Origin: Roseivirga thermotolerans
Lineage (GTDB): Bacteria > Bacteroidota > Bacteroidia > Cytophagales > Cyclobacteriaceae
Assembly (NCBI RefSeq): GCF_014653175.1
Contig: NZ_BNAG01000002.1
Coordinates: 186,001 to 250,000, forward strand
DNA: 64,000 nt
Reading direction: 5' to 3'
The first letter of the stretch is position 1. Every line of letters starts with the position of its first letter. Positions 9,052 to 11,205 of the stretch are shown in pieces. The position numbers and the translations under genes were made by a program. Below the pieces are notes generated by a model, which did not search any database, was not told the DNA's origin, and saw nothing but the letters and a program-made list of their open reading frames with translations.

Positions 9052-10134
9052 TTAACTGGATCCTGTAGCTGTCGGTAGAGCACCCGCCCCTGCTCCTGCA
9101 CCAGCACCCGCCATAGCCGGTGTTGGTGCCCCTACCATAGGGGCAGCTGCGGCTGGCATGGCAGAAGCACCGGCTGCCGGAGGGGCAAGCGTAAGAGTAC
9201 CCATAGCATCAGGATCATAAGTGGCCTGTACTTGTTCAATGATCTGCCGAATCACGGGCAACATGGAGTTGTAGTCGTAAGACGCACCTCCTGACTTTAG
9301 TCGGTGAAGTTCTTTATGTAGTTCGGAAAGCGAACCCCTACCACCCCGCTGTCTTTCACCCACTCCAGCATCCATTAGGTTTATGCTGGCCGTTTGTAGA
9401 CCTCCAAGTCCTTTATTTACCATGTGTTCTTTATTTACATCGTCTGTGATAATGTTATTGATTAGGCCAACTAATGCCGGATGCGCTACAGCAATTTCGT
9501 GCAGTACTTCCTGAAATTTAGAGCGAAACTTAGGGCCAACTCTTCCATACCTGCTTCTGGCAGCAGCATCACGGGTTGAAGCCAGACACCGATCCCATGC
9601 CTCCCTTAAAACCGGATTAACTCTGAACGATAATTCACCAAACTCTTCGTAGAGGTTCTTTATGGCAGCTTTAGTTTCTTCATCGATATGTCCGTTTAAA
9701 CTCTTCACCCTGTCTGCCAGTGCGGCCGTTTTAGCCGCAAAGCTTGATGCATCTCCCAGGGTTCCTTCCTGAACTTCATGAAGTGCCTCCAGTGCATCCT
9801 TCAATATAGTTTGATTGTCGGTTGTTATCGCTGTTCTGGCTCCATGTGCGGTGCTGAACATCATCTGCTTTACAGAAAGTTGAGGAGACACTGCTTTATT
9901 TACAAGTGGGCGGTTGGCCCTATTGTTGCCCCATTGCTCAGCTTTGACCAGTTTACTGTATTTATGTGAAGCAAGCTGTACCAGACCCGATGAAAGCAGT
10001 GCGGCTCGTGAATCTTTATTTAGAGCAAGTTGGGCAGGCCTGGTCTGATTTTGAATGGCTCTTGAGGGAGTACGGCTCGAATCTTGACTAGGATTACTGA
10101 CTTTTTGGTATTTGTGCACATATCTTAATGTCAA
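9052..10134 (-). CDS. Hypothetical protein with Ala/Gly/Pro-rich C-terminal tail
   Basis: I do not recognise this 360-residue protein. Residues 1-100 are basic and Ser/Gln/Asn-rich and look disordered. Residues ~105-310 are largely helical (around ALEALHEVQEGTLGDASSF and PVLREAWDRCLAST), and the last ~50 are low-complexity Ala, Pro and Gly ending in a GAGAGAGAG run. It has no signal peptide or membrane helix. The start is uncertain: the frame opens at TTG 10134 with a stop just upstream, and a GTG five codons in is also possible; no ATG occurs before residue ~90. It is divergent from the histidine operon and has no co-directional partner. A disordered N-terminus plus helical bundle would suit a cargo or effector of a contractile injection system, but that is speculation. 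Confidence 0.65.
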   Translation of the reverse strand: MTLRYVHKYQKVSNPSQDSSRTPSRAIQNQTRPAQLALNKDSRAALLSSGLVQLASHKYSKLVKAEQWGNNRANRPLVNKAVSPQLSVKQMMFSTAHGARTAITTDNQTILKDALEALHEVQEGTLGDASSFAAKTAALADRVKSLNGHIDEETKAAIKNLYEEFGELSFRVNPVLREAWDRCLASTRDAAARSRYGRVGPKFRSKFQEVLHEIAVAHPALVGLINNIITDDVNKEHMVNKGLGGLQTASINLMDAGVGERQRGGRGSLSELHKELHRLKSGGASYDYNSMLPVIRQIIEQVQATYDPDAMGTLTLAPPAAGASAMPAAAAPMVGAPTPAMAGAGAGAGAGALPTATGSS

Positions 10135-10159
10135 ATTTCAGAAAAGGTTACCATGCGAA

Positions 10160-10189
10160 TTTGAAATGTGCATTGGTTCACTATCTTTG
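10160..10189 (+). promoter_or_regulatory. Bacteroidota-type sigma-A promoter of the histidine operon
   Basis: A -33 element TTTG (10160-10163) and a -7 element TATCTTTG (10182-10189, consensus TAnnTTTG) are separated by 18 bases, as in primary-sigma promoters of Bacteroidota. Transcription would start near 10195, immediately before the His-rich leader peptide, leaving about 150 untranslated bases before hisG. Confidence 0.65.
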
Positions 10190-10196
10190 CAGCGCA

Positions 10197-10250
10197 ATGC
10201 AAATGATTCTCGCACATTTCCACGCTCATCATTTCCACCATCTCTCTTGA
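10197..10250 (+). CDS. Putative his operon leader peptide (attenuator), six His codons
   Basis: A 17-codon frame, MQMILAHFHAHHFHHLS and TGA, lies between the promoter and hisG. Six of nine consecutive codons are His (CAT or CAC), far above chance and typical of leader peptides that sense charged tRNA-His. A short self-complementary stretch (ATCTCTCT at 10240-10247 with AGAGAGAT at 10250-10257) covers the end of the frame, where a ribosome stalled on the His codons would interfere with folding. The second ATG (10203) may be the true start. I do not see a textbook GC-rich terminator with a T-tract between here and hisG, so the mechanism could be an unusual terminator, a pausing or anti-sequestering structure, or Rho. 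The gene it controls and the codon content make the assignment fairly convincing. Confidence 0.7.
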   Translation: MQMILAHFHAHHFHHLS

Positions 10251-10344
10251 GAGAGATATTGCAACCCCCTATGTGGCCTACGCGGTCGCTTCCCTTTCCA
10301 GTTTTCTTTAATCATTTTCTAAACTTACCAGTTGAATAATTCAG

Positions 10345-11205
10345 ATGGAGAATATATTACGAATAGCTATTCAAAAGAAAGGCCGCCTGAGCGATGACTC
10401 CTTAAAACTAATCAAAGAGTGTGGCATAAAAGTGAATAACGGTACCGGCAAACTAAAAGCCGATGCAACCAACTTCCCGATGGAATTTCTCTTTTTAAGA
10501 GACGATGATATTCCCGGATATGTGCAGGACGGTATTGCCGATATTGGCATTGTAGGAGCTAATGAAGCCGAAGAAAAAAACAAAGAGGTAACCTGGGTAA
10601 AGCACTTGGGGTTCTCAAAGTGTAGGCTCTCTTTGGCCATCGATAAAAATGAGGAGTATAACGGTGTGCAGGATTTTGCAGGCAAAAGCCTGGCTACATC
10701 GTACCCCAAAATTCTGGGCGACTTTCTAAAAGCTCAAGGTGTTGAGGCCGATATACATGAAATCAGCGGTTCGGTAGAAATAGCACCAAGCATAGGTTTG
10801 GCCTATGGTATTTGCGACATAGTGAGCTCCGGATCTACCCTGCTTAGCAATGGGCTAAAAGAGGTAGAAGTGATTTACAAGTCGGAGGCTGTATTACTGG
10901 CTACACCAAACCTGGCTCCCGAAAAGCAGGCCATCCTCGATCGGCTGATATTTCGGATCAACTCTGTTCAGGCAGCCAAAAACAACAAGTACATTCTGCT
11001 CAATGCACCCAATAATAAGGTGCAGGAAATCATTAAGATTTTGCCGGGTATGAAGAGCCCAACAGTATTGCCCCTGGCTATGGAAGGGTGGAGTTCAGTG
11101 CACACTGTAATTCAGGAAGACGATTTTTGGCAGATTATAGAAGACCTTAAATCAGCAGGAGCAGAAGGTATTTTGGTGGTGCCAATTGAAAAGATGATCC
11201 AATGA
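10345..11205 (+). CDS. hisG: ATP phosphoribosyltransferase (long form)
   Basis: The enzyme catalyses the first step of histidine synthesis, joining ATP and PRPP to form phosphoribosyl-ATP. The 286 residues start MENILRIAIQKKGRLSDDSL and include the phosphate-binding signature around GSVEIAPSIGLAYGICDIVSSG. The length and the ~75-residue C-terminal extension (around NKVQEIIKILPGMKSPTVLPL) identify the long, hexameric form with the ACT-like domain that binds histidine for feedback inhibition; it needs no HisZ. It is the first structural gene of the operon and overlaps hisD by 4 bases (ATGA). Upstream lie a promoter at 10160-10189 and a His-rich leader peptide. Confidence 0.97.
   Translation: MENILRIAIQKKGRLSDDSLKLIKECGIKVNNGTGKLKADATNFPMEFLFLRDDDIPGYVQDGIADIGIVGANEAEEKNKEVTWVKHLGFSKCRLSLAIDKNEEYNGVQDFAGKSLATSYPKILGDFLKAQGVEADIHEISGSVEIAPSIGLAYGICDIVSSGSTLLSNGLKEVEVIYKSEAVLLATPNLAPEKQAILDRLIFRINSVQAAKNNKYILLNAPNNKVQEIIKILPGMKSPTVLPLAMEGWSSVHTVIQEDDFWQIIEDLKSAGAEGILVVPIEKMIQ

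Follow-up and report, generated by a model that had tools for sequence, protein, structure and literature searches.

The window (the whole 64-kb stretch of DNA that was analysed) carries hisG as the first gene of hisG-hisD-hisC-hisB, all four identities being confirmed by NCBIfam, and a short His-rich open reading frame (ORF) stands between the putative promoter and hisG. Among named contigs, this hisG is closest to a Cytophagia MAG (92% identity), followed by several Roseivirga (83–87%), a genus that NCBI assigns to Cytophagales. The features of the leader region, all on the plus strand, are as follows.

10160–10163, +, promoter −33 element TTTG (direct reading)
10182–10189, +, promoter −7 element TATCTTTG (direct reading; conserved in aligned loci)
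10197–10250, +, His leader ORF MQMILAHFHAHHFHHLS, with ATG at 10197–10199 and stop codon TGA at 10248–10250
10201–10207, +, segment A, AAATGAT, just after the leader start
10228–10234, +, segment B, ATCATTT, within the His codons, pairing with A
10236–10316, +, match of covariance model R1, 20.0 bits, E 0.014 (smaller search)
10240–10257, +, H1, stop-codon hairpin ATCTCTC-TTGA-GAGAGAT
10258–10272, +, C-rich linker, mostly unpaired in the predicted fold, with CCCCC at 10265–10269
10273–10289, +, H2, hairpin GTGGCC-TACGC-GGTCGC, followed by a pyrimidine tail without a conserved U-run
10345–11205, +, hisG

The promoter is of the Bacteroidota type, with a spacer of 18 nt from TTTG to TATCTTTG, and the TTTG and TAnnTTTG columns are conserved in 32 aligned loci. 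The leader comprises 17 codons and ends 94 nt before the hisG ATG (10345); His occupies codons 7, 9, 11, 12, 14 and 15, that is, six of nine codons. No other 9-codon stretch with at least six His occurs in any of the six frames of the 64-kb window, and none arose in each of five mononucleotide shuffles of it. A sequence-only reading of this DNA had proposed a promoter TTTG-N18-TATCTTTG just before a peptide with six His in nine codons ahead of hisG, and a symmetric stretch at 10240–10257 overlapping the end of the peptide. Direct reading confirmed the promoter coordinates, the His cluster proved to be the sole one of its kind in 64 kb, and the symmetric stretch resolved into exact inverted arms around the stop codon. 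Bacteroidota promoters follow a known consensus with a usual distance of the −7 element; if that distance applies here, the leader mRNA may be almost leaderless, because TATCTTTG ends 7 nt before the leader ATG.

The remaining his genes, read as hisH-hisA-hisF-hisI, form a separate cluster on the same contig, ~290 kb from hisG (484437–488120), and no short ORF with at least three His was found at that locus. A search of the genome with one 16-base pattern, allowing at most one mismatch, returned no second copy of the leader. On the minus strand, a divergent 360-aa ORF (9052–10134) starts 26 nt from the his promoter and has no match in NCBIfam.

Conservation of the His-rich frame

We collected hisG upstream regions from 172 loci, nine of which are duplicates. 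Ninety-six belong to the window's family (label f1), and these are the loci fetched; one search alone located hisG in 276 of the 295 family genomes. Loci sharing the window's genus label (g1) are referred to as same-genus, and Cyclobacteriaceae-type is our own label for loci of other family genera whose peptide ends in HHxHHSS. A short ORF with at least three His in ten codons was present in 94 of the 96 fetched family loci; the reverse strand yielded one in 4 of 96, and 10.2% of 480 shuffles did so. When at least four His were required, 87 of 96 family loci retained the ORF versus a single one of 96 on the reverse strand. Thus the frame, whose conservation had been offered in the sequence-only reading as a check, is kept in relatives. 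All 19 same-genus loci carry four to six His, and the last His codons swap between CAT and CAC within the genus while His is mostly retained. The peptide ends in HHxHHLS or similar in the genus, versus HHxHHSS in a large group of other family genera. In the named Larkinella and Dyadobacter contigs, no ORF was found by the three-in-ten criterion. Spirosoma hisG loci (L064, L068, L082, L083, L085, L086, L087, L089 and L090) have a different recurrent upstream ORF, MISQRATHSPFRHRRHHRG-like and rich in His and Arg, 150–180 nt before hisG. The conserved leader very probably senses histidine.

RNA structure of the leader

The arms of H1 are exact (ATCTCTC, 10240–10246, and GAGAGAT, 10251–10257) and enclose the stop codon in the TTGA loop. 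We scored H1 as significant when a stem as long or longer occurred in at most 5% of 200 shuffles. By this measure it was significant in 16 of the 19 loci from the window's genus, in all 29 Cyclobacteriaceae-type loci, whose uniformity is partly the result of selection because they were picked largely for their linker box (or for a similar alignment), and in 13 of 46 other family leaders, 58 of 94 in total. The sets with this stop-hairpin architecture (arch A) were chosen by eye and comprised 19 same-genus and, depending on the test, 19 to 29 Cyclobacteriaceae-type loci. One clade has the H1 arms CAUCUCUC/GAGAGAUG, whereas those of the other are AUUCCUCC/GGAGGAAU, the codons and the RNA after the stop having changed together. 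The linker contains ACAUAUCGCCC in Cyclobacteriaceae-type loci, nearly invariant in 24 of them, and often ACCCC in the window's genus, where the box is degenerate, the window included. Boxes similar to ACAUAUCGCCC recur inside the leader ORF and before hisG.

The covariation of these stems was assessed in two alignments. In a model-fitted alignment of 55 matches, 94.8% of the cells pair, 11 of 13 pairs show two-sided changes, and 62 compensatory cells were counted compared with 16.1 in shuffles (0 of 500 as high; slid controls far lower), in an alignment that leans towards structure, counts clade-level changes many times, includes five wrong-strand rows (L168+, L133−, L134+, L129− and L127−) and is gapped in H2 in 18–21 of the 55 rows, including that of the window's locus. 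An unfitted alignment of 24 sequences gave 6 compensatory cells versus 1.4 (1 of 500 shuffles as high) and three pairs with double changes (30 of 500 as high). Taken together, these comparisons indicate that the predicted H1 and H2 stems covary in relatives.

Predicted pairing between the leader start and the His codons (A:B) had a z of −2.34 in Cyclobacteriaceae-type loci, with 21 of 25 lying below −1, and was weaker in the genus (z −1.38; 11 of 18 below −1), AUG and CAU being complements; L016 and L113 have no suitable start and were skipped. Pairing of the 3′ arm of H1 with downstream RNA was ruled out, with mean z values of +0.66 and +0.14.

The covariance model R1, built from 24 relatives with the window excluded, makes the element findable in other genomes. 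It matched 36 of 148 family genomes once each; hisG was located for 34 of these, and in all 34 the match lies just upstream of it. At E 0.001 with strict filters, R1, whose source loci come from a single clade, matched no same-genus genome among the 148 searched, and its match to the window is weak (E 0.014). A second conserved block, approximately TACTAAACGTATATTGCATNC-ATG, stands before hisG in many Cyclobacteriaceae-type loci (L113–L172, for example L162); its sequence is like that of a weakened −7 promoter element and is reminiscent of the ACATATCGCCC box.

Terminator and antiterminator signatures

In the window, H2 is followed by the T/C-rich tail TTCCCTTTCC, and a consensus terminator scan of 601 bases picked it out as one of two terminator-like sites, where shuffles averaged 0.7 (sd 0.9). 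Of the 18 same-genus loci listed (L016 skipped), 17 have no more than five T among the eight bases that follow H2. The sequence-only reading had found no GC stem followed by a T-tract before hisG. A GC-rich hairpin, H2, is in fact present, and the statement that there is no standard terminator holds because the tail of H2 is not conserved as a U-tract across same-genus loci. The sole same-genus U-tract is that of L019 (genome G012), where H2 is CTGGCGATAAGCCAG followed by the T run TTTTTCTTG; it is possibly a terminator remnant or a fresh gain.

We surveyed 123 of 133 leader-bearing loci for terminators, leaving out the nine duplicates and loci with a spacer of less than 40 nt, and found a GC stem with a T-run in 23. 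These include textbook His leaders at seven other loci of the window's family (L040, L043, L044 and L046–L049) and, elsewhere in Bacteroidota, at L038, L097, L099 and L102. The others flagged are six Pasteurellaceae, the doubtful L031, L019, and four loci in which H1 itself was flagged.

Antiterminators were sought in truncated transcripts by calculating, for each ribosome position, how firmly upstream RNA holds the 5′ arm of the hairpin (terminator or H2) at the moment before the 3′ arm is transcribed. The classical set consisted of 16 of the 23 flagged loci; L031, L097 and five loci run as arch A or flagged only via H1 (L019, L129, L133, L134 and L168) were left out. All 16 classical his leaders gained more than 1 kcal/mol, with the mean gain rising from 2.1 kcal/mol with the ribosome at the stop codon to 10.0 at the best His codon. 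At a threshold of 3 kcal/mol, for which 11 classical Bacteroidota loci were used (L097 included, L031 left out), all 11 of these exceeded it, compared with H2 in one of the 19 same-genus loci and three of the 19 Cyclobacteriaceae-type ones. With two other ribosome footprints, 0–1 same-genus and 2–3 Cyclobacteriaceae-type loci exceeded it. The same test passed only 5 of 17 trp leaders (16 same-genus and one from another family), although plain terminators are present in 15 of the 16 trp leaders listed, and at 1 kcal/mol it passed 7 of 19 and 10 of 23 arch A loci as well as 9 of 37 terminator-less leaders. The test discriminates well among his leaders, yet the negative outcome for H2 is not decisive, because 12 of 17 trp leaders were missed and many loci pass at the lower threshold. 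In these folding calculations, there is little sign that H2 has an antiterminator dependent on the His codons. Folding at equilibrium with the ribosome footprint blocked was uninformative, since it changed almost nothing even in known attenuators.

Intrinsic terminators are available to this cell, because its own trp leader, MKRTNRNNAWWWHVTELR (upstream of the trpE match at 784112 of contig C3), is followed by the strong intrinsic terminator GCCCGCAGTTCATGCGGGCTTTTTT. A TGG run was seen in 17 of 19 trpE loci scanned. Upstream of ilvD in G012 (L177), a leader rich in branched-chain residues, MKQLTVIISVIIISPSG, precedes a hairpin with a T run; no such leader was seen directly upstream of ilvD in the window's genome.

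Since H2 lacks a conserved U-tract and shows little antiterminator sign, the his leader is a variant form, without standard attenuator parts as far as tested. Of the sequence-only reading, both the His leader and the lack of a standard terminator held up. The suggestion that the operon uses a version belonging to Bacteroidota as a whole is not supported: textbook his leaders occur in seven other fetched loci of the same family and in Bacteroidales and Flavobacteriaceae contigs, and the trp leader of this very genome also has a standard terminator. As judged from these sequences, the unusual form is a feature of the his operon in part of the group.

A proposed output through ribosome occupancy and Rho, and the rival readings

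We favour a cis-acting histidine sensor whose output is ribosome occupancy of C-rich, G-poor nascent RNA that Rho could otherwise use, while giving it somewhat less than an even chance. The comparison of sequences establishes the ORF and its conservation, H1, H2, the A:B pairing in relatives, the lack of a conserved U-tract and the C-over-G bias, whereas translation of the frame, stalling, the action of Rho and the direction of regulation are what we infer. The short ORF would be translated as the his mRNA emerges. When His-tRNA is scarce, the ribosome would stall on HHxHH with its leading edge meeting H1, given the usual footprint size, a stall that does not appear to choose between a terminator and an antiterminator. 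With His plentiful, the ribosome would leave, H1 would close, and pyrimidine-rich RNA (CAY, UCC, CCCCC and the UTR) would be exposed, on which Rho would end transcription before hisG is established. With His scarce, the stalled ribosome would cover the His codons; with the A:B stem opened, the leader start may then load further ribosomes.

The accessible text of PMC12121999 describes rut sites as YC-rich with a high C:G ratio and proposes that Rho loads on the 5′ region after the uORF ribosome leaves. The window's genome contains a rho gene. The excess of C over G (C−G) from −48 to +80 of the leader stop is 0.1875, a value reached by 0.44% of 7,984 equivalent segments of the 64 kb and, as a tie, by one of 46 regions upstream of ORFs, whereas the 128 nt directly upstream of hisG stay below 0.08, outside the top five of 46; the outcome changes with the segment examined, and most of the bias comes from the His codons (CAY, C-rich by nature). 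Across the genus, C−G falls from 0.223 over the final 48 coding bases to 0.083 over the 80 bases that follow the stop. The genus mean for the 128 nt upstream of hisG is +0.109, compared with +0.003 upstream of ilvD (21 loci), −0.032 upstream of trpE (19) and +0.038 upstream of homoserine dehydrogenase (21/24). After the stop, C−G averages +0.084 in 100 terminator-less loci versus −0.017 in 23 with T-runs (Mann-Whitney p 4e-9, uncorrected for kinship). The coding part of Pasteurellaceae leaders with terminators has the same C−G, 0.222. We also scanned for spaced C residues with our own simple RhoTermPredict-like version: the pattern occurs nowhere in the window leader, and its presence in 8 of 19 same-genus loci is no clear excess over the 32% of background segments that contain it. 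The C-over-G bias, mainly in the coding part, lends occupancy some support, and the Rho-type reading ranks first but below one half because the spaced-C pattern is absent from the leader and CAY codons cause much of the bias. Also counting against occupancy, the C-rich linker lies beyond the stop and would stay out of reach of a ribosome stalled at the final His codons. A narrower version, which we consider rather doubtful, is a switchless attenuator in which the C-rich His codons themselves (CAY next to UCC and CUC) form part of the Rho loading site.

The main rival to occupancy is translational attenuation, in which the His codons (UUCCAUC) pair with the hisG start (GAUGGAA) and a stalled ribosome frees the start; we regard it as unlikely. 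RNAalifold proposes the pairing UCCAUC:GAUGGA in 15 same-genus loci, and 13 of 19 contain a perfect stretch of 6–8 bp at −6.9 to −11.6 kcal/mol, while L007, L008 and L011 use another part of the His codons more weakly (−3.7 to −6.4 kcal/mol). Short matches of this kind are expected because CAU and AUG are complements, and the pairing shows no covariation: own pairs gave −8.06 kcal/mol versus −7.94 for swapped ones. The z values are −0.81 in the genus, −0.37 in Cyclobacteriaceae-type and −0.13 in other loci, and in the wider family the pairing is no stronger than chance. When the His codons were blocked, the hisG start was not clearly freed among the loci listed, and it became more paired in L012, L015 and L017. 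A precedent is the actinobacterial LEU element of leuA, for which the accessible text of PMC1262725 proposes a stem between Leu codons and the leuA Shine-Dalgarno box. There, too, a leader ORF with regulatory codons lies in structured RNA and the codon run may pair with the initiation region. Unlike a covarying helix of the LEU type, the pairing considered here lacks covariation. In the same text the LEU element is described as a pseudoknot, a fold that the prediction used here cannot produce, and leader translation is itself doubted as its mechanism.

Classical attenuation would also account for the leader if H2 with its pyrimidine tail were a weak intrinsic terminator whose antiterminator escaped the folding test. 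H2 covaries in relatives, the tails TTCCCTTT (window) and TTTTTCTTG (L019) speak for it, classical his leaders occur in the family, and the test overlooked most trp leaders. We nevertheless find this reading improbable, given the low T content of 17 of the 18 same-genus tails listed, the failure of 18 of the 19 same-genus loci to gain more than 3 kcal/mol, and the strong U-tract that the same genome uses for trp. A trans-acting factor that reads H1, the ACAUAUCGCCC box and H2, with the leader peptide as an extra input, would explain why the near-invariance of the box in 24 loci and its recurrence exceed what occupancy needs, but its degeneracy in the window's genus, the window included, makes such a factor quite improbable. 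That the leader is vestigial, its His ORF remaining after control of hisG was lost, would fit the missing classical parts and is the least credible reading, since 94 of the 96 fetched family loci retain the His codons and the stems change compensatorily.

The leader resembles proteobacterial hisL (Rfam RF00514, His_leader) in having a short ORF with clustered His codons before hisG and hairpins after it. It differs in having no conserved U-tract, little antiterminator sign, His codons at the very end of the peptide and a stop codon in a hairpin loop. RF00514 matched neither the window nor four arch A loci scanned (L162, L130, L124 and L037), scored above gathering for L104 (Actinobacillus) and below it for L043, a classical Bacteroidota leader (33.2 of 49 bits); no Rfam family reached gathering level in window positions 9500–11000. 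Classical Bacteroidota His leaders (L043, L047, L049, L099 and L102), some from the same family, share the gene and the His-rich ORF but have a GC hairpin, a T run and a strong antiterminator signature. In E. coli, tnaC senses free tryptophan. As in tnaC, toiL-topAI and other Rho-linked uORFs, a uORF lies upstream, a candidate rut lies in the 5′ region and ribosome position would matter, the role of Rho here being proposed; unlike the signals of toiL and tnaC, that of the his leader would be His-tRNA. The accessible text of PMC12121999 reports that toiL senses antibiotics and that its uORF is accompanied by a rut in the 5′ region.

Vitreschak and colleagues reportedly included Bacteroidetes/Chlorobi in a comparative study of attenuators in 2004. 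Leader control in the phylum is already known, since the available portions of two reports describe strong hints of attenuation by leader peptides upstream of amino-acid operons in Flavobacterium psychrophilum (PMC9723704) and sORFs reminiscent of leader peptides in Bacteroides thetaiotaomicron (PMC7366714). The accessible parts of the literature on Bacteroidetes his leaders and attenuators contained no description of a terminator-less stop-hairpin his leader, and this form appears to be undescribed as far as literature searches reach.

RNA switching is classically illustrated by amino-acid leader peptides; here the sensor codons are kept without the standard terminator. With a classical trp leader in the same cell and some classical his leaders in the family, two outputs of one signal can be compared directly. 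If the occupancy reading is right in its switchless form, the same bases would serve as the stall sensor and as the site that the stalled ribosome must cover, and no alternative RNA fold would be needed. Such an attenuator would be peculiar to hisG and to a part of Cytophagales, with trp in the same cell keeping its classical terminator. The leader also makes it possible to ask, at a small and well-defined site, whether leaders are places of Rho action in free-living Bacteroidota.
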